Assembly: GCA_006503475.1 (NCBI GenBank)
Contig: RSEH01000063.1
Coordinates: forward strand, 115,584 to 179,583
Origin: Stentor roeselii
Lineage: Eukaryota; Ciliophora; Heterotrichea; Heterotrichida; Stentoridae
Direction of reading: 5' to 3'
Length of the DNA: 64,000 bases
The position numbers and the translations under genes are program-made. Of this stretch, positions 1 through 36,673 are shown in pieces. Numbering within the stretch: position 1 is the first letter of the stretch; each line of letters opens with the position of its first letter. The notes beneath the pieces are model-generated. The model was given only the letters and a program-made list of their open reading frames with translations. It was not told the origin of the DNA and searched no databases.

Positions 1-3000
1 AGGTGTTACTTCAGCCACTTCGTCTATAGTAGTATCAGCTCCAGCTTTATATAGCATAACTCTAGAAGCTAAACCTTCATCTCCTTCTGCAAGGTTCCCA
101 TTCAATATAACAGCCACTCTGAAAGATCAAGACGGAGATCCTTTTACAGCGTCCTCCTTGACTCTTTCAGCAAATCCTTCAGTTTCAGGGACTACTTCAG
201 TGACGAGCACTTCATATATGTTCACTTTTACAGTTACTGCAACTTCTTCAGGGACATATACATTTTCATCCACACTTTCTGGAGTGACTGGAACAATAAC
301 TGTAGGGGTTTTAGAAGATTCAATCTTAATAATTTCTACAACCCCAAGTTCAACAGTAAAATTTATTCAGCCAACTTACACCACAACAGCAATTTCTGTT
401 GAAGCAGGTGTTTATGGAAACTCGGGGATTCACATACTTCTGGGATATTCCTTTACACTCACTCTTGAAATTACTCCGATCTCCTCATTTTCAGGCACTA
501 GTACTTCAACTACTTCATCAACAACAGGAAAATGTACATTCTCCAATATCAAAATAAACAATCCTGGGACATATCAATTCAAAGCCACTTACACCGGAAT
601 GACATCGGTACTTGGCACGAATATCACAATTAGTCCGTTTACATTAGTCTCGATACAATTATCTTCTAGTGTAACTGAAATAAGTGCTTACTTTTCATTC
701 ACTCTATCAATTTCACTTTTGAATGAAGTTAATTCTGCATATACCACTTCAACAACTGTTACCCTTGCAGGAAGTTTAACGTTCGGTGGATCAACTTCTC
801 TAACAACTTCATCAGGTTCCGGCACTTTAAGTGTCTATGGTATAAAACCAGGCAATCTTTTATTTACTGCTGAATCAAACGGAAAATCCGCATCAGTAAC
901 AGTAATAATAAAACCCAATATAATGAAATTTGATTATATCGGCCCAACCGTAATAACTCCGTAGCCCACAACAACTTCCTCAGTCTTTGAAGTAAAAGTT
1001 GGCGTTTATGACTCGACAGGCACCTCCTACATAAATTCAGGGCAACTTTCAATAACTTTATCTTTATCGCCATCAGGAACGATATCAGGAAGCAATCCGG
1101 TTAGTACTTCATCGACTTTTCAAAGTATTTTTACAGGATTGTCAATTACAACTGAAGATACTTACTATATAATCGCATCTGCAAGTGATTTATCTTCAAT
1201 CACTTCGTCATCATCATATACAATAATAGCACCAGTCCTTTCGACGATAACTGTTACATCTAGCACCTCAACTCCAACTGCATATTTCGACTTCACAATA
1301 ACAGTAACATTAAAAGACCAAACCTCTTCACTATGGACAACAAGCACATCAACCGACTTATCAGGATCAAACCTATATTCCTCATCATCACTCACCCAAA
1401 CAATCACAGGAGGCACCGGGACATTTTCCGTATACGTGACATCCTCTGGTAATATCACAATGACAGCAACTAGTTCAACCATATCAGGATCCTTGACATT
1501 AGAAGTGAAACAACTACTCCTAGTGGTCTCATTGAGTTCAACAGTAATAAATAATCAGCCAACTTTAACCAACAGTGTTTTTAATGCCACTGTGAAGATC
1601 AGAGACTATAGCGACACCCAAGACCTGACATCCCGAGGGTCTTTCACGATAAACTTAAACACTGTTGATCTCACAGGAGCGACGACATCAGAGATCAACT
1701 TATCAGCGACTTCAAGTTCAGGGTCCGTTTCTTTCAGTTCATTAACGATTTCCAAGAGTGGAAGTTATAAACTCTCTGCAACTTCAACTGATATGGTCAC
1801 TGGAAACTCATCAACACTGACAATAGCAGACCTTGAATTAACGACTATCACATTGTCGAGCTCTAATCTAATCCCGACTATTTACTTTGATTTTACGATC
1901 ACTGCGACTTTAACAGACCAATCAGGAGGATCTTGGAGTAATTCAACGTTGCTTAGCTTGACTCCTGTGAGTCTGGTCTCGGGATCAACTAGTGAAACAG
2001 CGACAGGAGGGTCAGGAACTTTTTCTTTATATGGGATAAGTGCCGGGATTTATACTTTAACAGTCAGCAATGGTTCAGTTTCAGGAACAATTGACATTGA
2101 ATTTAAAAAACTTGCTTTGGTCTTTAGTTTATCTGGAACTTCAGTACTTTTTATTTAGCCTACAACAACAGAGAGCGTTTTTGGAGCAGTTGTGAGTATT
2201 AAAAGTAATGATAAGAGTTTGGACTATGGAAAAACAGATACTTTTAATATTCAACTTTCAATTAATAACAATGGACAACTGGATGGGGTGAAAAATGTGG
2301 TTTCTTCGGGAAATACAGCAAGTTTTACTTCACTTTCAATAACATCAAGTGGAACTTTTGTGATAACTGGATCAGGAACTGACATGATTGATGGCCTTTC
2401 TGATAGTTTATTGATCAATGCAGCTGCTTTAGGAAGTATAAAAATTACCACAAATACAACAACTCCTTCTGCATTCTTTACATTTGAGTTAAAATTAGAA
2501 CTGCTGAGTGATTCAGGATTAGTATGGACATCAACAAGTAGTTTAAATATTGAACCTTCATCGTCATTAGGTGGGACCCTTTCACTATCAACAAGCAACG
2601 GTACATGCTACGGTTACATATATGCATTAACTTCAGGACCTTTAACTGTGGAAGTAAGCAGCGGGTCCGTGACTACCTCAAAAATTCTCACAATTCAAAA
2701 AGACATTTTAAAAATCACTCTAGTCTCTTCAACTCCTCTCTACACAAATTCTTATTTCTCAATAAACGTGAAGGTCTATGACTTCGAAGGCAACTCTCTT
2801 GAAGACCAAAGAGGAACTCACTTAATTGATTTATCAGTCACTCCAGGTACCCTTTTAGGTACAGTCTCAGGAAGTACTTCATTAGGTTCTATTTCTTTCA
2901 CGAATCTTCAAATCACTTCCTCTGGGCTGAACACTTTAAAAGCTTCTTGCACTGACATGGTTCCTGATACGATGGATTTTACTATTACTGCCTTGGCTTT

Positions 3001-6000
3001 GACTAGAATTGAAATCGATTCTTATCCGTCTACTTCTCCTGCCTTTACTTTATTCTCTGTCGTTGTCAAGGCCTATGATCAGACTGGTCTTTGGACCAGT
3101 CCATGCACAGTGACTTTGACTGGAAACTTGGAAATTGATGGGGATTTAAGTCTTAGTATCACTGAACAAGGGACTTTTGAGATTTATTGCAAAGAGGTTG
3201 GAAGTTTGAATTTGAAGGCTGAGACTGAAAGTTTTAGTCATTTTGTTGATATTGAGATTACAAAGGATTATTTGAAAATTGAGTCTTTGAGTAGTGTGGT
3301 GAGAGTTATTTAGCCGAGCTTTACTGTTGACTCTTTTGATGTTCAAGTTTGTGTTTATAGTGATGGACTTTTTAACTCGAAAATAGAACTTTATGGAAAT
3401 TTTTATGTGCAGCTGAGTTTGGATAATTCTGGAAGTTTAAGTGGAAGTGATGCAGGAAGTACGGTTAATGGTTGTGTTGATTTTTCTGGATTGAAAGTTA
3501 GTAGTCCTGGGGTATTTGTACTTACAGCCACAAATCAATATTCATACCCATTTTCTTATTCAAGTTTGACAATAAATTCTCTAACTATCACCATAACATC
3601 AGACTACGACCCCACATCTTTCTTCGACCATTCACTATCAATAGAAATAAGAGACTACCAAAGCAATCTCTACATCCATTCACTTCAAGTAACTTTATCC
3701 GCCTCAAACAGTATAATCACCACGAATCCATTAACAACCTCATCCGGATCCTGTTCATTTTCCCTTTACTTCACCCAATCAGGCCAAATTCAAATTTCCG
3801 CATCTTCATTAGGCTACACAGGACAATTATCCCTTACAGTAAACAAGCCAATCTTAAAGCTTTCAATGATTCCTCCATCAGTACTTTTTACTTAGCCCTT
3901 CCTCGTCGTTTCCGAATTTTCCGTTTCCATATCCATAAAAAATTCAAACGAATCTAAAACAGAGCAAAATTACGGTCCTCATTCAATCACCTTATCAATA
4001 TCTCCATCTTTTTCCTCATTCCCATTATCAAGCTCTTCATCCTCAGGGGTAGTTTCATTCACTTCACTAAAAATCACAACATCAGGAACCTATTCATTAA
4101 CCGCTTCAGCGACTGACATGATTTCAGCAGATTCTTCTTCTTTTACAGTCTTAGACCTTGCCCTGACAACGATGAAGATGGCTTTTAACAAAGTGAGTCC
4201 TTCAGCCAATGAAGACTTTAATGTTTTTGTTGAGCTTTTTGACCAGCAGCCTGTTTATTTCTTGAGTGAAAGCTCAGTGAGTCTTTCAGGAGACTTAAGC
4301 ATTTCAGGGTCGATCTCTGGAAATACGAGTACAGGGTTTGTTACTTTCGTGATTCATTGTTTGAGTCCTGGAAGTTTAACTGTCACTGCAGTGAGTGGGT
4401 TGATTTCAGTGAGTGAAACGATTACTATCAAGCCTCAAAAGTTAAATTTTTCAATCACTCCTCCTTTATCTGTGAAAAGATTTGAAAGATTCGCTTTTGA
4501 AGTGTCGGTCTTTGAGAACTCATTGACAGACTTGAGTAGTTACGGACCTTTCACAATAACTATCACTACAGACCCGTCGACTACAGTGGTTGGGGCCTTG
4601 GTTCTTTCGACATCTTCAAGTAAAGCGAGTTTTTCAAATATTCAGCTTTTTGAAATAGGTTCATTCAAGCTGGTCGCAAGTTCTTCTGACATGTCAAGCA
4701 TTTCAACCAGTGCAATAACAGTGAACATCAACTACGAGCTTTTAATTGAAGTGGAAGTTCCGAGTTACACCCCGATGTTGAAGTATTACTACCAGTTCCC
4801 TGTCACTGTCCACAACCTAACAAGTTCAGCTCCGTTATCTTCAGCTTCCGTGAAACTTTTCATGAATTCCACTCTCATCGCGACGCAAACTACGAACTCA
4901 ACAGGCCAAACTATCTTCACATTACTTTTCCAGACTTTAGGAAAAGTCACTCTTAGATTTGAATGCGATATCGCTAGTCTTAACAAAGAACTTCAAGTTA
5001 TTGTCTCTGATAATCAAGACGATCTTTGTATTATCGCTCAGAATGCTTCAGTTTGTATGACTTGTGTCCAGAACAGCTTTGTTATTAATGGAACTTGTGT
5101 TTGCTTCCATAATGGAACATTTTCTAATACTAGTGGAAAATGTGAATGTCCTCCTGCTCATAATCCTGTTAATAATTATTGTATTGATTGTGGGTTTTAC
5201 TTTAATGCTTCGGAAATTACAAGTAATTATGACAGGAGCTTTAAGGTGGTCTGGGTTTACTTTGATCGTAATGTGAATAGGAAAAATTTGAATGGTTGTC
5301 AAGATATTCTTGTTAGTCCTGCATATTTTTTAGAACCTAGTGTCTCTTGTTTGTGGATTTCTGGAACTGTTTTGAAGATTGTGATTGGGGAGTATACTGA
5401 TCTTACTTATGACTACCTTGAAATCGATAACTACAAAGTACAAGCAATAAGCGACAAATGCGATGTATACATAGAAGACCTTATAATTCCAATTCAAAAG
5501 CAAGTGAATATCACAACTCCCTTCACAGAAATAACAGCGCCAGATACTTTTTCAATTGCATGCACAAAGTCAAACCTTCTGATCTCATCAACCCTAATAG
5601 GGAAAAACGTGACATACGTCTGGTCAGTAACAATAACCCCCAACAATTCATTAGTTTCCACCTTCATTTCATACCAGACATCAAGTGCAATAAGCATTCC
5701 CTTCACAATGCTATCCGAGTCCATCCTAAATCTAACCCTAACAACCAAATACGAAGGTCTCGAGAGCACATACATTACAACCAAATCAGTAAAAGTAACA
5801 AACGATCAAAATCTAGACGTTTACCTTAACACCCAAAGTTTAATAAAGCTTCGAGTATCTCAATCTTACACCCTAGTGGCAGGTGTTGACTCATCCTGCG
5901 GTAACAGCGAAACATCCTACACTTACAAATGGACCTGCAACGACAGTACTCTAAACATTTCAAATTTTCAATCAAATTCAACCCCAAACTCCTTGACCAT

Positions 6001-8548
6001 CGCGAAGTACTCATTAATTGCTTTAAAATGTTATACCTTCCAAGTACTCGCATCTGATGGAAGTCTTTCCGGAACTGCTGAAACTGTAATCTGCATGATT
6101 CAATCCGACCTTGTAATTGTCCTCAGTCGGTCAAGTGGAAGTGTCAGTCCATCTGTTGACTTTATCGTGAATTCAACAGTCTCTGACCCAGACGACGCTT
6201 TAGCCGTGATTTCAACTGAATGGTCCTGCATCGAGTCTTCAACTTTCTGCCTCAACAAAGACAACTCTTCCCTTTCACTTTCCCAATCCTCAGGTAATCT
6301 TTCAGTATCCTCTCTTCGAGAACGAGCCTTGTACCAATTCACTTTAAAAGCCTTCACATCTCTAAAAGTCAATTACGCCTCTTTACTTATTTATGTGGAC
6401 CCTTCGATAAAAGGAGAAGTTCTGATTTCAGGCCCACTTGAAAAAATCAACCCAGACTACATTTACAACGTTATTCCCAAGTTTACCTTACAAGGCAAGC
6501 CGGAATTCAAATGGTCTATCACGAATGGCGAGGTCGATTCATCTCAACTGACTCTAAGCAACTCTTTTGTAGGTCTTCCTGAAGCAAGTTTAATACGAGG
6601 AACTGGGTATTTACTGAAAGTCCAGGTAAAAAGCAGCCAGTTTGAAGGTACTTTGGAAAGTCAAGTCAACGTCAATACCAACAAAGGACCTGCTTGTTCT
6701 GAGATCACTTATGAGACTTCAGCGGATACTATTGAAGTCTTGGTTTCTGGATGTGTTGACCTTGATGATGAAGACTACCCTCTTGCTTATCAGACTGGAA
6801 TGGTTTTTAAAAATAAAACTGTCTGGGTCAATGCTCTTAATGGTAATCCTTGGAGTAAAGTTAAACTTCTCCCAAGTGCTCAGAAGGTCGTGGTCAAGGT
6901 CTGTGATGCTTTAGAAACTTGCACTTTCATTGAAAAAGAACTGAAAGTGCAGAATCGTCTGCTGGAAGAAGACGATTTGATGACTGTCATGCAAGAAACA
7001 AGAGACTCTCAAAAAATCCCGAATATTATTCAGGTTTATATGGAAAAAGACATCAGTTTTGCTACTTTTTTGTTTTTATATGAAAAGTTTTATGGGTATT
7101 TCAATGCACTTGAAATGAATCTTCAGAATTTTCAGATGTTTTCGAATTGCTTGAATTGTATCCTTGCTTTGAAGGATAAAGCTGTTGATATTGTTGAGAA
7201 CTCTACTTTTATTACCGCTTCTGTTGTTGGTAGGCTTGGAAAGAGGCTTAAAGGGTCGGATGTTGATGATTTGATTCGGGCTTATGAACCTTTTGTTAAT
7301 TTCACATCGTTTGATGCTCTTAAAGATATGCTGCTTGTTATTGCTGATTGTTGGACTACTGATTTGACTCCTAATGCAGAAATTACTTATAGTGGAACGA
7401 TTTCTTATTTTAGGGCTAAGTTGATTGGAGCTTATTACCCTGGAAGGCTTATGAAAAGTCAGAGTTTAGAAGTATTGGTTTCTAGGGAAACGGCTTTTAG
7501 TTACTCGAAAGTTTATGACTTGACTGTTTTTGTAATTCAGGTGAATCAGAGCATTTATTTGATTACTAATTCAACGGTTTCTGCTGATTATGAAGATTAC
7601 TATTTGCAGCTTAGGAGTTTGAAAGAAAGTGGAGTAAGTTTCAGACAACCTGTATCAATAACCCTAAAAAACTCCTTAAAACTATCATCAGCAAAATGCG
7701 ATTCCACATCTTCATCCTGTAAAGTGACAAAAGTAAACAACACTCACATCCAAATAAACATCTACAACTTTTCAAACTACGAAATAAAAGACTCTGGATC
7801 CGCCTGCACATTAAAATCGACTCCAGTTTACATAATCTCAAGTCTTTCATTTTTCTTCATAATCGCGAGTATCTGGGTGTATCTGAAAGACCGTCAATAC
7901 AAATACGAGCACATAAAATTCTACCGTTTTCTAGCCCTTTACCCCTTAACCTCGATTTTTATCCCTCAACACAACCCGAATCGCGTGATGGCCATGAGCC
8001 ATCTTTGTGCCTGCAGCACTTTCATGCTAGGAGCAATCGGATTCACCTACAACGACCTAGAAAAAGATCTAAATACCTTCAACATTACCATCGGAGACGT
8101 TACTTTCAAACATCTTGCTCGAGGACTCATCGGTCTTGGCCTTGTTCAAATTTTATCGATTTTCAATTTAATCGTTAAAATCAATGGAAATATTAATAAA
8201 AAGTTGGAGTATGTTGCTGTTACCATCAATTTTTTATTCACTGCTATTGGCGCTGGGGTCGTTGGAATCACTTGCTTGTTTATGTGTCCTGAAAGTTTTG
8301 ATATCTGGATTGTTAACTTTGGGATTTTTATTTGTTTACATTTATTTGTGTTTGAAAGTAGCTACTCTGGAATTTCGGTTTGGTTGGTTAGGAAAAGAGC
8401 CTCTGGTGTCATTAAAGTCACTAGGGCACCTGAGGATTTGACGAATTTTTCAAAGGATTTTAAGATTATTGCTGAAGGGGCTGCTGATACTTCGAGACAT
8501 TCGAAGAAACTTGATAGAACTCAAACTAGGAGTTTTATTAATCCTTAG
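1..8548 (+). CDS. Giant repeat-containing membrane protein with REJ-like region (5' end outside window)
   Basis: The frame is open from base 2 to the TAG at 8546-8548 once six 15-nt phase-0 introns are removed, giving about 2,818 residues without the true N-terminus. Residues 1 to about 1,570 are Ser/Thr-rich beta-type repeats of about 190-200 residues. Around 1643-1708 is a Cys-rich EGF/GCC-like stretch (CMTC, CVC, CECPP, CIDC). Around 1800-2290 is a region with W/C spacing and motifs (YVWSV, YKWTC, EWSC) resembling REJ/PKD-type ectodomains of polycystin-like proteins. About five hydrophobic helices follow (near 2580, 2635, 2675, 2710, 2740), then a short basic cytoplasmic tail. I see no clear GPS cleavage motif. 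Likely a cell-surface adhesion or sensing protein; the REJ label is by resemblance only. It is followed by two more surface-protein genes on the same strand. Confidence 0.85.
356..370 (+). other. 15-nt intron (giant gene, unit 1)
   Basis: gtaaaatttattcag, phase 0. It contains no stop, so it would pass as coding (VKFIQ). It is identified because it sits exactly where sister repeats carry stop-containing 15-nt introns. Confidence 0.8.
950..964 (+). other. 15-nt intron (giant gene, unit 2)
   Basis: gtaataactccgtag, phase 0, ending with an in-frame TAG. Removal joins the frame to the next repeat unit. Confidence 0.92.
1544..1558 (+). other. 15-nt intron (giant gene, unit 3)
   Basis: gtaataaataatcag, phase 0, no in-frame stop. 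Assigned by its position in the repeat, exactly 594 bp after the previous intron. Confidence 0.8.
2144..2158 (+). other. 15-nt intron (giant gene, unit 4)
   Basis: gtactttttatttag, phase 0, in-frame TAG at its end. Removal restores the repeat frame. Confidence 0.92.
3299..3313 (+). other. 15-nt intron (giant gene, unit 6)
   Basis: gtgagagttatttag, phase 0, in-frame TAG at its end. The preceding unit, near 2730, has no intron at this position. Confidence 0.92.
3881..3895 (+). other. 15-nt intron (giant gene, unit 7)
   Basis: gtactttttacttag, phase 0, in-frame TAG. It differs from the unit-4 intron at a single base. Confidence 0.92.
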
Positions 8549-8917: not shown

Positions 8918-11900
8918 ATGATCTTTTTCATATGTTTTCCTCATCTTTTCCTAGCATTTCCCGTAACTTTCATTCCTGATACAAAGTCTCCTCCAGCAGC
9001 GCGAAGTGAAGCATTTATGGACTACTTACAAACCAGGTCATCTTTAATAATCTTCGGAGGGTGGAACGGCGAAACATTATTCAATGATCTCTGGGAATTT
9101 TCCATACTTTCTTTCACCTGGTCAAAAACCCTATCATCATCATTCGAGATTCCACGTAATCTTTAAAAAGAGCCAAGAAGCAGCTTTGGAGGATTTTCTA
9201 GTCCAAGTGAGTCGAAGATCTTTATTTTTGGAGGAATGACTTCATCAGGACCTGAGAATGATTTCTGGGAATTTGATTTCAACAGCATGAAATGGGAGAA
9301 GATTAAAACATTTTCAACACCTTCTCCTCGTAATTGGTTTGGATTTACTTCTTATTCTATGTTCGGTACGATTTTCTTTATAGTGCAAGGCGGGTCTACT
9401 TTAATTGGAACTGTTAATGAAATGTTCAGGTGAGAGATGAATAGATTGAATTTCACTAGTCTTCAATGGGAAAAACTTCCTGGAAATGGAGAAATTCCTG
9501 AATCTAGTGATGGACCTGTCTTGGAGTTTTATGAAGGAAAGATTTTGCAAGCTGCTGGAAATCCTGTTGGTGGAAAGGCTTGTTTACCTTACTTGTACAG
9601 CTACTCTCTTGAAAATCTTGAATGGTCTGTTATTTCGGATAAAGAAAGCTCGTTTGAATGTGTAGGACTAACTCAAAGTTATATTTACCAGAACGAGTTA
9701 TTTATTGTATTTGGCTGGAATTACCTAAAAAATAACGACTCTACTGATTTGTACAAGATAAATCTTGTGAATGAGAATAAAAAGTGGGAAAAACTTAGTA
9801 TTTGGCCTGAACTTGCTGGAGATGCTTTTTGTTTTACAGTAGTTGGAAACTTTGGGTACTTTTTCGGAGGGTTTAGTTTAACTCTTCAAGTTCATACTAA
9901 TAAAATCAGCAAGATTCAGCTTGAAAATCTTCTTCATTTTCCTTTAAACCACAATTTTTTAATACCAAAGCCCAGAGCCTTGCATTCAATGGTTGTTTTA
10001 AACACGAAACTTTATGTCTTTGGAGGAGTTGACTCTAGTTTGCTTTTTAATGATCTTTGGACTTTTGATATCTTGAATAACCTGTGGGAACAAGTCTTGG
10101 TGAAAGGAGATGTTCCAGCTCCAAGACATTCTCATGCAGCTAATTCTGAGGGTGATACTTTTGTTGTCTGGGGAGGGGAAGGGTTGAATGGATTATTAGA
10201 TGATATGTTTATTTTTAACTCAATTACTGAAACCTGGACACAGCTTACCTCTTCATCATCAATTAAACCCAGTCCAGCAGCAGGAGCTTGTTTGGCTTTA
10301 AAAAACTTTAAAGTTTACATCTACGGAGGTAAAAGAAACTCAAACGTTTCTAATGAGCTCTGGGTTTACAATATCGGAAGCAACTCATTTCAACTCTTGT
10401 CATTCGGTCCTGTTAAGGTCAGCTTTGCTCACTGTTGGATTGATTTAGATCTTTTTTATGTTTCTCTGGGAATGAATGAAATTTCTGGACCATCAACTGA
10501 AATTTGGTTTTTTAATTATTCGAATGTAAGTTGGAATATTTTTCATCAACATGAAATGAATGGTTATGATTCTGCACAGTCTAGCCAGATTTTCATTGAT
10601 AATCGTTTGATTAGTATTGGAGGGCATATTTGGATGCAGACTGCAGGTTACAAGGTTATTATTTTAGGTAAAGGAAATAAACTTTCGATCTTTAAATCTG
10701 AGATACCATTCCATACCATTGGTTCTGCTTCAGTTTACTTTAACATGTCACTCTACATATTCGGCGGATCTAGTGTTTTAGGCAGTACTTTACTACCGAA
10801 AATCGGTAGTAATCTCTTTTCTAAAATAAACATAAACGAGTTATGTCAAGATTCAGACTGCAACGCTTTATGCTCTAAAGGTACAGTTCAGAACGGAAAA
10901 ATTTGCAACCTTTGCATCAAGGGTACCTATATGGAAGAGATGGGCAAAGCCGAATGCCTAAAATGCCAGCCAGGCACATTCAATAATAAATCCGGTTCAG
11001 CGAATCCATATCAATGCCTACCCTGCCCAGAAGGCACTTATAACTCATTAATCGCTTCATCATTTTGCATAACTTGCCCTGCAGATAAATATTGTCCCAT
11101 CAGGAGTTCAAAGCCTCTGGACTATCAAAATTTTCCACAAGTTGAATTTACTCAGCCTTCCCTTTACGAGCAGGTTGACCTAAGCGAAACTTTGCTGATA
11201 TATCGAGTTTCAGTCAGTGCTTTTCTCACCATCTCTCTCATATTTTGTCTCTGTATAAGAAAACTGAGAATAAAGCTAGAAAAATTAGACATGTTCAGTA
11301 AAAGGCACAAAAACTACGAGAATAACTACGTGATTAAAAAACAAACAGTGATTGGAGCTTGCTTTTCTATCTTGTTTCTGATAAGTGCTTTGATTTTAAC
11401 TGGAACATCAGGTTTTAGCTACTTGAAAGCGAATATCTCTGAAACTAAAGGACAAGTGCCTCTAGTTGTGTTAAAATCAGACGTTTCTTCCTATATATCA
11501 CAAGAAATCACCTTAAAACTTTCCTTCAATTCATATGGTGGAATATGCGAGTCAAATTCTGAATGTAACCCATTATTTTCCTTCACGTCTTCAAACATCT
11601 TCTGCTCCGACATATCAAAATCTTGTAAATTAACCGATATCGACACTTGTTCAATCCTTTTAACCTGCATGTCAGGAGAGTTCAAATCAAGTGCAAAACT
11701 TTTTTTCTCCTTAAAAGAAAACCAGAGTTATTCATCAAAAATTAAAGTGAACTTGACTTCTAGTTCTTCAATTCCTGGAGAAATCAGCTCAATGTCCTCA
11801 GTCCTGTCTTCTGATAGTGGGTCAGTTTTCATAGGGCCAGTCGCAAGTCAGTTTTTCTTTCTAGCGACTCCTTCTTTGTTCACTTCAGAGTCTTCTGAAT

Positions 11901-12262
11901 GGAAAAGTAAAGAGACTGGTTATCATATATCTGAAAAAAGTAGTCCTTTGTCGGGAAGCCAGGTGACTCCTGAGGACTTGCCGGCTGTTTCTTATCTTAA
12001 TGTTCAGATAAACATTGAAACAAGCTCTAATGCGCTTTTAACTCAGAGAATGTTGAAACAGGATTTTTTGGTTTTCGTTGGAGCTCTTCTTGGAAGTGTT
12101 TCTGGACTTTTTGCTGTTTCGGGAATCGCTATGAGTTTTTTTGAGGGCCAGGTTGAGAAGTTTCTTTTGAGGAGGAAGATGATCACGTTTGCTGCTGAGA
12201 TTAAGGGGATTGATACTGCTTTAGGAGTTTTTAAAAAGGATGAAAATATGAAGAAGAGTTAG
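8918..12262 (+). CDS. Kelch-repeat, GCC2/GCC3-like cysteine-rich, three-TM surface protein (copy A)
   Basis: Three frame segments join through two 15-nt introns into about 1,104 residues. A hydrophobic N-terminus (MIFFICFPHLFLAFP) looks like a signal peptide. Residues ~30-620 carry kelch-type motifs (IFGGWNG, YVFGGVDS, VWGGEG, IYGGK) with W/D spacing typical of a kelch propeller. Residues ~630-720 are Cys-rich with CxxCPxGTY-like motifs of GCC2/GCC3 or ephrin-receptor-like repeats. Hydrophobic helices lie near 747-770, 800-827 and 1040-1067. A ~210-residue beta-rich Cys-containing domain separates helices 2 and 3. Start ATG lies in an A-rich context. It is a tandem paralogue of the next gene and probably a plasma-membrane protein. 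Function unknown; kelch propellers usually bind partners. Confidence 0.88.
9156..9170 (+). other. 15-nt intron 1 of kelch copy A
   Basis: gtaatctttaaaaag, phase 1, contains an in-frame TAA. Splicing gives an IPQPR sequence that aligns with VPEPR in copy B. Confidence 0.92.
9430..9444 (+). other. 15-nt intron 2 of kelch copy A
   Basis: gtgagagatgaatag, phase 2, in-frame TGA. Splicing gives MFRLNFT, continuous with the second half of the gene. Confidence 0.92.
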
Positions 12263-12646: not shown

Positions 12647-15600
12647 ATGATCTTTTTCTTCTTACTTTCTCTTTCCTCATCATTTCCTACAGTTTTCATT
12701 CCAAGCACAAAGTCTCCCCCAGCAGCCCGAAGTCAATCATTAATGAACTACTTACAACCAAGGTCATCTTTATTAATCTTCGGAGGTTGGAACGGTGAAT
12801 CCAGCTTCAACGACCTTTGGGAGTTTTCCTTGAATTCCCTTACCTGGTCCAAGATCCTTCCATCATCACTTGAAGTTCCAGGTAAGCCTTATTCAGAACC
12901 CCGATACAATTTAGGAGGATTTTCCAGTCCAACAGATGAAAAATTATACATATTCGGAGGTGTTACATCATTAGGACCTGAAAATGATTTCTGGGAATTC
13001 GATTTCAACAGCATGAAATGGGAAAGATTAAAAACTTTTTCAACACCTTCGCCTCGTCATTATTTTGGATTTACTACTTATTCGATATCTGATACGATTT
13101 TCTTCGTTGTGCAAGGTGGGCTTACCTTTAAAGGAGCTGTTAATGATATGTTTAGGTGAGGGATAATTAGATTGAATTTCACTGGGCTTCATTGGGAAAA
13201 ACTTCCTGGAAATGGAGAAATTCCTGAACCTTGCTTTGGACCTGTTTTAGAGTTTTATGATGGAAAGATCTTACAAGCTGCTGGCGCTAGTGAAAGTGGA
13301 AAGAATTGTTTACCTTACTTGTATAGCTACTCTCTTGAAAGTCTTGAATGGTCTGTTATTTCGGATAAGGACAGCTCGTTTGAATGTGTTGAGTTAACTC
13401 AAAGTTATATTTACCAAAACGAGTTATTTATTGTATTTGGCTGGAATTACATAAAAAACGAAGACTCTTCTGAGGTTTATAAGATAAATCTTGTGAATGA
13501 GAATAAAAAGTGGGAAAAAATTAGTATTTGGCCTGAACTTGCTGGAGACGCCTTTTGTTTTACGACTGTTGGTAAAGTCGGGTACTTCTTTGGAGGGTTC
13601 AGTTCAACTTTGCAAAGTCATACAAATCAACTGAGCAGGATAGATTTAGACAAAAGACTTCATTTCCGTATTAACCCGAACATTTTTTTACCCAAACCAA
13701 GAACTCATCATTCTATGGTTGTTTTGAATGCGAAATTCTATGTCTTTGGAGGAGTTGACTCTAATTTGCTTTTTAATGATCTTTGGACTTTTGATATCTT
13801 GAAAAATCTGTGGGAACAAGTAAATGCGAAGGGAGAGGGACCTGCTCCAAGACATTCTCATGCAGCTAATGCTGAAGGAGATACTTTTGTTGTCTGGGGA
13901 GGGGAAGGGTTGAATGGACTTCGAGATGATATGTTTATTTTTAACTCTATTACTTCATACTGGACTCAGCTGATTTCTTCATCATCTGATAAACCTAGCC
14001 CTTCGAAGGGTGCTTGTTTGGTGTTAAAAAGCTTGAAAGTTTATATTTTCGGAGGAAAACGAGAATCTGATTTTTCAAATGAGCTTTGGATTTATGATAT
14101 CGGTGCCGACAAATTCGAACTCCTCTCATCTGGCCCTTTAAAACTGAGCTTTCCTCATTGTTGGATCGACTCTAACCTATTTTACGTTTCTCTGGGGATA
14201 TTAGAATCCGATGCGCCATCAACAGAGATATTATTTTTCAACTTTTCCTCAAAAACCTGGAAACCTTTCCACAAGCACTCATTATCAAGCAGCGATTCTG
14301 CCCAATCAAGCCAGCTGTTCATCGAAAACCAGTTGATAAGCATTGGAGGTCAGACCTGGATGCAAACTCCAATTTACAAGGTAAGCATTTTGAAAGCAGG
14401 CAATAAATTTTCAGTATTAAAGTCAGAAATAAGCTTTAATAATTTTGGATCAGCATCAAGTTATTTCAACAAGTCTTTATATATATTTGGAGGAGGAAGC
14501 GTTTCAGGAAAGACGATGTTTCTGAGACTGGGGAATAATATTTTAACGAAGATTGATGTTGATGAACTGTGCTTGGAGGATGATTGCAAGGCTTCTTGCT
14601 CTAGTGGAACGGTTTGGAATGGAAAAAAATGTGAAATCTGTGGGGAAGGGACTTATGTGGAAGAAAGGGGAAAAGAAAAATGTTTGGAATGTTTACCTGG
14701 GACTTATAACAACCAAACTGCCTCTACAAATTCATATCAATGCCTGCCTTGTCCTGAAGGAACTTTCAATGAATTTAAAGCGGCTTCAAGTTGCAAGTCT
14801 TGCCCGGATAATAAATACTGTCCGATTAGAAGTATCAAGCCATTAGAAAAAGTTTTATCTGAACAAAGCGAGTCGTTTCAGCCAGTTTTATATGAACAGC
14901 CAGATCTCAGTGAAACTTTGCTGATTTACCGAGTTGTAGTAAGCGCTCCGTTGATTTTACTTCTAATTATTTTCATCAGCATCAAAAAACTTCGAGAAAA
15001 ATTTCAACATATCGACATGTTCAGCCAAAAACATCAAAACTACGAGAATGATTATGTTGTAAAGAAAAAAACAATGATCGGGGCTTGTTTTTCGGTTTTA
15101 TTCGTTATCAGTGCGTTGCTTCTGACTTGCTCAGCAGTTCTTAGCTACTTAAAAGCAAATATTCATGAAACTAAAGGCCAGGTGCCTTTAGTCGTGTTGG
15201 AATCTGATGTTTCTTCGTTTATAGCTGAAGATATTACCTTGAAACTTACTTTTATATCATATGGAGGGGAATGTGAATTGAATTCTAAATGTAATTCTTT
15301 GATTTCTTTCACTTTTTCTAATATTTTTTGTTCAGATACTTCAGTGTCGTGCAAAATGACTGATGATGACACCTGCTCTATTATTTTATTGTGTAAATCA
15401 GGAGAAATCAAAACAAGTGCCAAGATTTTTTTTTCTCTTAAAGAAACTTTAAGCTACTCATCTGAAATTAAAGTGAATTTGACTTCTAGTTCTTCAATTC
15501 CTGGACAAATCAGCTCGATTTTGTCTGTTTTGGCTTCTGATAGTGGAAATGTGTTTATTGGGTCAGTTGCGAGTCGGTTTTACTTTTTAGCGATTCCTTC

Positions 15601-16000
15601 TTTGTTTAAATCGGAGTCTTCTGAATGGAAAAGTAAGGACACCGGATACCATATCTCCGAGAAAAGCAGTCCTTTACCAGGGAGTCAATTCACCCCTGTG
15701 GAATTGCCAGCTGTTTCTTATCTCAACGTCGAAGTAAACATCGAAACCAGCTCCAACGCTCTATTAACTCAAAGAGTATTGAAACAAGACTTCGTAATTT
15801 TTGTAGGAGCTTTTCTTGGAAGTGCTTCAGGTCTTTTTGCAATCGCTGGATTCGCTATGAGTTTTTTTGAGAAGCAGGTAGAAAAGTTTGTGAATAGGAA
15901 GAAATTGAATGCGGTTTCTAAACAAGTTCATGAAAAGGAGGTGGTTGTTAGGAAATCGAATATTCTGGAAACGACGAAGATTGAGGTATGGGGAAAGTGA
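12647..16000 (+). CDS. Kelch-repeat, GCC2/GCC3-like cysteine-rich, three-TM surface protein (copy B)
   Basis: After removal of two 15-nt introns at the same positions as in copy A, the protein is about 1,107 residues. It has the same order: signal peptide (MIFFFLLSLSSSFP), kelch propeller motifs (IFGGWNG, YVFGGVDS, IFGGK), a Cys-rich GCC-like stalk (CSSGT, CEICGEGTY, CLPCPEGT, CPDNKYC), helices near 748-771, 799-825 and 1039-1065, and a beta-rich loop between helices 2 and 3. The basic C-terminal tail differs from copy A and is longer. The two copies are clearly homologous along their whole length, so this is a tandem duplication. A broken third copy lies at the right edge of the window. Confidence 0.88.
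12882..12896 (+). other. 15-nt intron 1 of kelch copy B
   Basis: gtaagccttattcag, phase 1. It contains no stop and would read as GKPYS. Its position matches the stop-containing intron 1 of copy A exactly. Confidence 0.85.
13156..13170 (+). other. 15-nt intron 2 of kelch copy B
   Basis: gtgagggataattag, phase 2, in-frame TGA. Same position as intron 2 of copy A. Confidence 0.92.
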
Positions 16001-36276: not shown

Positions 36277-36359
36277 TAAGAAAATTTGTGAAAGTTTTAA
36301 TGTTTTTTATTATTTTGAAGAATATTTTAATGAGAAAAAAACGATTTGATTATACCTGT

Positions 36360-36673
36360 GGTATTCAAACTATTTATTCAAAGATAGTTTCAATCAACAG
36401 TTACACCTTGATAAACTTTCCAGGTATTCGAACTATTTATCTAAAACTATTTTCTATCAATAGTTACACCTTTATCAACTTTCCGGTATTTAAACTATTT
36501 ATTTAAAACTATTATCTATCAATAGTTACACTTTAATCAATTTTCCTGGTATTCAAACTATTTATTCAAAGATAATTTATATCAATAGTTACATCTTAAT
36601 CAGCTTTCCTGGTATTCAAACTATTTATTCAAAACTATTTTCTATCAATAGTTACACCTTAATTAACTTTCCC
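36360..36673 (+). repeat. Minisatellite, five copies of a 62-63 bp unit
   Basis: Units beginning ggtattcaaac or ggtattcgaac start at 36360, 36423, 36485, 36548 and 36611. Each contains tctatcaatagttac or a close variant and ends in ctttcc. Copies differ by a few substitutions. The array fills the gap between the convergent COPI-associated and coiled-coil genes, and its last copy contains the stop codon and last few codons of the latter. Confidence 0.92.

Follow-up and report, generated by a model that had tools for sequence, protein, structure and literature searches.

The window analyzed here is the 64,000-nucleotide (nt) end of contig C432 (positions 115584-179583; assembly of 44.4 Mb in 522 contigs), and it opens inside a long forward-strand gene (1..8548; stop codon TAG at 8546-8548) whose coding sequence is interrupted by 15-nt elements of the form GT-N11-AG. 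The start of this host gene, an ATG at window position -928 (contig C432:114655), was found in fetched upstream DNA, giving a whole frame of 9477 nt or 3158 codons. The frame holds exactly six internal stops; all are TAG, every one forms the final codon of a GT-N11-AG 15-mer, and no internal TAG occurs elsewhere in the 3158 codons. Excision of eight such 15-mers, six in the window and two upstream, yields a single frame of 3118 amino acids with the terminal stop only. The gene encodes an array in which an A domain and a B domain alternate as a two-domain module of ~590 bp. We propose that the 15-mers are spliceosomal introns of the heterotrich 15-nt class that were copied together with the repeat and the gene and later lost cleanly from a few units, a reading that we consider very probable.

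Seven of the nine A units of the host (A1 to A5, A7, and A8) carry a putative intron at one phase-0 site, A6 and A9 do not, and successive site-to-site spacings along the array are 588, 594, 594, 600, 591, 564, 582, and 594 nt. The A1 copy lies upstream of the window (-232 to -218), as does a further 15-nt element near the N-terminus and outside the repeats (-844 to -830). Within the window the putative introns are at 356..370 (A2, GTAAAATTTATTCAG, no in-frame stop), 950..964 (A3, GTAATAACTCCGTAG, ending in TAG), 1544..1558 (A4, GTAATAAATAATCAG, again with no in-frame stop), 2144..2158 (A5, GTACTTTTTATTTAG, ending in TAG), 3299..3313 (A7, GTGAGAGTTATTTAG, with a GTG start and a final TAG), and 3881..3895 (A8, GTACTTTTTACTTAG, ending in TAG), all on the forward strand like the two upstream elements. 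Unit A6 is seamless at 2734..2735, where SST is followed directly by PLYTNSYF, and the approximate homologous site of A9 (4456..4500, TPPLSVKRFERFAF) is likewise empty, as in the last A units of the paralogs C50 and C490. An earlier note on this DNA had described six such 15-mers in the window, in phase 0 and spaced by 594, 594, 600, 1155, and 582 nt, two of them free of stops, together with two seamless units, and all of this is borne out: the spacings are exact, the stop-free copies are those at 356 and 1544, and the seamless units lie at 2734..2735 and near 4475. Its tally of six intron-bearing and two seamless units holds for the window but not for the whole array, which has nine A units and seven introns, the additional one being that of A1. 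The A3 copy is unusual in having C rather than A at position 10. It contains TAATAAC, which resembles a classical branch sequence, and among the GT..AG stretches of 13-24 nt in 921-1000 it alone spans the stop and preserves the frame; possibly it branches at position 7 or is spliced poorly.

One exon of the array corresponds to one repeat module, consisting of the rest of an A domain, a B domain, and the first strand of the next A domain (1559..2143, forward strand). The fold predicted for this exon, using an alignment of six window modules (taken from five exons, the longest one being divided in two at its seamless junction), comprises two beta-sandwiches with a mean predicted local distance difference test (pLDDT) value of 89 and a predicted template modeling (pTM) score of 0.70. 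Judged against the B domain, the intron site would lie within the A-domain loop that joins strands one and two, which might accommodate five additional residues. A fold search returned immunoglobulin (Ig)-like domains at modest template modeling (TM) scores, with complement C5/C3 first by E-value and with invasin (1cwv, TMq 0.61) and SbsC also found, and a Pfam scan of four stretches of the host gene gave no gathering-level domain and weak hits to Big_1, Big_13, and CarboxypepD_reg. The N-terminus of the host protein, judged by eye, looks like a signal peptide, and the family seems to be one of large surface proteins whose C-terminal part includes a hydrophobic region.

The same site recurs throughout a gene family. 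A search with the C-terminal 985 residues of the host protein gave 33 matches, the host itself included, which share this region and are each surrounded by a very long open frame (1291 to 5184 codons). Our sample consists of the host and 19 paralogs, the remaining 13 matches lying outside it. Longer stretches were available for four paralogs, of which C50, C490, and C119 have the array and C441 (L011/L030) shows no such array and no site; for L012 to L026 the available sequence mostly covered no more than the final one or two A units, and no site was obtained from L016, L019, L021, L022, L024, or L025. The host and the paralogs read in this way contain 45 same-site copies, which form a natural set of sister introns. 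All 45 have the length and the GT...AG ends of heterotrich 15-nt introns, and their A+T content is 74.8% (505/675, by hand tally). GT and AG are present in all 45, GTA in 44, A in 35 at position 4, T in 36 at position 9, and A in 43 at position 10. The last codon is TAG in 30 copies, CAG in 14, and AAG in one; 15 of the 45 contain no in-frame stop, and 14 of these combine GTA, A at position 10, and CAG, the remaining one having GTA, A at position 10, and AAG. This last copy, GTAATTATCAAAAAG, lies in the repeat region of C490 (L028/L009) and is the only family copy ending in AAG; it represents either an AAG acceptor, as at 9156-9170 in the window, or an exonised intron.

Five sets of orthologous units with three copies each (15 pairs) give a measure of which bases are held, with agreement of 60-100% at positions 1-4, 9, 10, and 12-15 and of 20-40% at positions 5-8 and 11. 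The last codon alternates between TAG and CAG in three of the five sets; for instance, the C490 ortholog of the stop-free A2 copy (356-370) terminates in TAG. These patterns suggest that the minimum requirement of the sister introns would be a GTA start, an A at position 10, and a YAG end, with A at position 4 and T at position 9 preferred and the rest nearly free.

That the 15-mers are additions to the repeat unit was seen on aligning units from the full gene and its relatives, a check proposed in the earlier note. A profile of spliced A units, searched against unspliced translations, gave 50 hits of at least 20 bits; four of these are truncated at the site and do not enter the counts. Of the 46 resolved units, 38 exceed the profile at the site by 2 to 7 residues, a surplus that amounts to exactly 5 in 32 cases; the other eight differ from it by 0 or -1.

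Elements of the same kind also cover frame-breaking stops outside the host gene. We collected single stops flanked by two open frames of at least 80 codons in 114 kb, and 17 of these 18 stops lie inside a GT-N11-AG 15-mer; excluding the host gene, the figure is 12 of 13 (p about 2e-14), compared with 13 of 194 for stops that terminate long frames and 803 of 13,929 (~6%) for other stops. From this difference, 15-nt introns combined with the standard code seem to be the norm in this genome, as they are in Stentor, and both traits fit Stentor-like heterotrichs; a search by an 18S pattern gave no match. The 12 covered stops outside the family comprise four TAG, six TAA, and two TGA, so their common feature is the 15-mer and not a single stop codon, and 11 of the 12 elements have A at position 10. 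Only seven introns of the frame-break set are in phase 1 or 2, too few to test for selection of TAG over CAG at phase 0. A matrix made from the 12 non-family 15-mers gives the 45 family copies a median of 11.7 bits, compared with 0.0 for 751 regional GT-N11-AG elements (p 4e-26). The reading of the 15-mers as introns given in the earlier note is supported at the DNA level by their likeness to the other stop-removing 15-mers of this genome, by the surplus in most resolved units, and by the paralogs having them at the same site. Ordinary codon usage gives a different picture, as GTA makes up 200 of 1237 valine codons (16%) and CAG 259 of 716 glutamine codons (36%) in the open frames here, such that coding sequence is not expected to resemble the site 15-mers (p 6e-34 for the GTA excess at the site and 7e-7 for that of CAG). 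Away from the site, the four array stretches contain 34 phase-0 GT-N11-AG elements, of which 14 have A at position 10 and three have both GTA and A at position 10.

A second group of genes in the window bears on the copies without a stop. Two tandem Kelch genes (9437-12262 and 13172-16000, plus upstream exons) have two intron positions in common. At the first, a putative 15-nt intron of the first gene (9156..9170, forward strand), which contains TAA and ends in AAG, corresponds to a stop-free element of the second gene (12882..12896, forward strand, GTAAGCCTTATTCAG) in the same phase and at the matching protein position; the second homologous position is that of the downstream pair, 9430-9444 and 13156-13170. 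Judging from the first pair, an obligatory intron may have a stop-free 15-mer as its sister. Among the four Kelch 15-mers, one is stop-free, one ends in AAG, and one lacks A at position 10. Elsewhere, the window contains a 63-bp tandem repeat of five copies with 84% matches (36359-36672).

The history of the site was read from two trees. In the gene tree the host groups with C50 and C490 (support 100/99). The unit tree contains 50 units, 42 with the intron and eight without; L018, L020, and L023 contributed no site to it, L015, L016, L019, and L021 no last A unit, and L024 and L025 no penultimate unit. In this tree the orthologous A1, A2, A3, A7, and A8 units of the host, C50, and C490 cluster with starred support and all bear the intron, hence the introns most likely predate the split of the three genes. 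A9 is empty in these three genes and in L012; the last units of C119 and of L014 do have the intron, as stop-free copies. A6 is empty in the host only among the three genes, its counterparts in C490 (by the tree) and C50 (by highest identity, 40%) being intron-bearing. The intron states need four changes on the unit tree, with a mean of 7.6 after shuffling and none of 500 shuffles as low. On the gene tree (20 rows), with states coded by eye, three changes are needed both for the penultimate unit, coded in 17 rows, and for the last unit, coded in 13. We favor at least four later changes after the copying and would read them as losses. The earlier note had left it open whether the introns were copied and then lost or were gained repeatedly, and the evidence now leans clearly toward copying and loss and away from gain, on account of the orthologous units and of A6 being empty in just one of the three genes, the host.

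We propose the following hypothetical sequence of events. A single ancestral phase-0 intron would have been located near the start of the Ig-like A domain, most likely in the loop that joins strands one and two. It would have been copied in register at each tandem duplication of the A+B module and copied again at each gene duplication. Clean losses would then have occurred from A6 in the host gene, from A9 in the ancestor of the host and its nearest paralogs, and from other units in more distant paralogs. The observations behind this mechanism are the position of the 15-mers and the homology of their site, a surplus that is mostly five codons long, the motif, and the trees; from them we infer that the spliceosome excises each element, branching at position 10, and that the intron was lost and not gained at each change.

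Any other explanation must account for the same features. The alternation of TAG and CAG at the last codon, usually with proline next, could mean that TAG is read as glutamine, by reassignment or context-dependent readthrough, and that V-x-x-x-Q-P is a real motif of the repeat protein. We regard this as extremely improbable, because the internal TAGs of the host gene are confined to 15-mer ends, equally shaped 15-mers elsewhere hold TAA or TGA and the first copy of C50 holds both TAA and TAG, the first codon is almost always GTA and all 14 glutamine codons are CAG with no CAA, and the seamless units match the spliced length. UAG as a sense codon outside the sites was considered separately and rejected, there being no other internal TAG in the host and, elsewhere, 12 of 13 frame-breaking stops lying in 15-mers, with a TAG at -11549 as the exception. 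Residual germline-limited DNA (internal eliminated sequences, IES) or pseudogene decay would suit a ciliate-like genome; the elements, however, are GT...AG with variable flanks and no TA direct repeat at their ends, the host frame is otherwise stop-free over 9.4 kb and the paralogs have long open frames, and we give this explanation a virtually negligible chance.

Two further alternatives accept introns in part. Independent gains at one favored site per unit, after duplication, would agree with the absence of the intron from B domains and some A units and with the limited resolution of the unit tree. They would nevertheless require dozens of gains, exact to one base, compared with about four losses, and the five orthologous units are intron-bearing across three paralogs, so that we find such gains very unlikely. 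It could also be that the TAG copies are introns and that the stop-free CAG and AAG copies simply encode protein or were once introns and became exonised. Nothing in the DNA compels removal of the stop-free copies, five additional residues could probably be accommodated in the loop, and a chance coding match to the motif does exist at 6626-6640. Against this stand the retention of the same motif in the stop-free copies, CAG in all but the single AAG case, the alternation of CAG and TAG between orthologs, and the Kelch pair in which a stop-free copy is matched with a stop-containing one, and we judge this alternative decidedly unlikely.

Copying of introns followed by clean loss has several points weighing against it. 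The 45 sites were collected by the pattern V...[stop/Q/K], which is partly circular for GT and AG, and 38 of them are surplus units of the hidden Markov model (HMM) profile while seven were placed by eye. The profile itself was made from 24 units picked by the intron motif and was searched against translations that included those units. The intron is seen in A domains only: 10 resolved B domains from the four arrays show no such surplus (-3 to 2), out of 15 weak hits taken as B units or partial hits, five of which are cut, so that the root state could be with or without the intron. Of the 47 inner branches of the unit tree, 14 have starred support and 19 are open, the deep part being poorly resolved; the bootstrap of this tree is unsettled and long branches meet, one such pair within the A9 group. 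The pairing of host A6 with its C490 counterpart is supported at only 81/75, and the numbers of changes on the trees give no direction, loss or gain. The TAG at -11549 (L003) is the sole single-stop break without a covering 15- or 16-nt GT-AG element. The stop-free element at 6626-6640 of the host gene is a perfect motif match in a stretch that the paralogs encode without a gap; from its sequence context it is a chance match in coding sequence, and a stop-free motif match alone therefore proves nothing. The A1 copy, upstream of the window, has a low score that 17% of GT-N11-AG elements reach, and position-10 A is missing in two copies, 950-964 and L017 at 333. Given that 950-964 departs from the position-10 rule, not every copy is equally safe.

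One candidate loss can be compared with a close relative. The intron is gone in L024 (about 310-375), where ACA GAA ATC AAA ACA AGT may retain part of it, when compared with the sister gene L020 (about 290-365, reverse strand), and on one reading the loss would be a small deletion between AAAAC repeats plus exonisation. As retention of a 15-nt intron would lengthen an Ig-like domain by only five residues, within a surface loop, we can conceive of the stop-free copies as facultative, the family keeping a pool of introns for which splicing, retention, and conversion into coding sequence would all be harmless, with the L024 unit and perhaps the AAG copy of C490 having already crossed over. This idea is tentative and rather unlikely to hold.

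The elements resemble the 15/16-nt introns of Stentor coeruleus, for which PMC9505925 gives 8806 annotated introns, 92.8% of them of 15 nt, a branch A at position 10, 75.63% A+T, and the standard code; length, GT...AG ends, position-10 A, ~75% A+T, and code all correspond. The present set differs in that many copies are mutually homologous and occupy a single site within a tandemly repeated protein unit. Blepharisma stoltei has tiny introns of 15-16 bp (PMC9942806) and reads UGA as tryptophan. The length class is shared, whereas in the present genome the standard code keeps long frames open and TGA is among the stops that introns contain. Literature searches, which returned titles with the openings of abstracts, brought up no account of sister 15-nt introns within a repeat array, and the case is a new and unusually rich example of an already known kind. 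In animals, arrays of duplicated domains have long symmetric phase-0 introns whose position is copied with each module, giving phase-symmetric exons. In contrast to such arrays, the introns here are 15 nt long, in frame, and stop-free in one third of the copies, so that retention adds only five residues.

The requirements of minimal introns are usually inferred by pooling unrelated introns, and here they can be read against shared ancestry and a fixed context. In 45 copies that most likely come from one intron, about seven of the fifteen bases (GTA, A at position 10, and YAG) are held and most others drift. The findings suggest that about a third of such introns are stop-free and could be silently annotated as protein. 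Candidate clean losses with close intron-keeping relatives provide material for studying how loss happens and, if the facultative reading were true, the array would display intron loss by exonisation and small deletion in progress.

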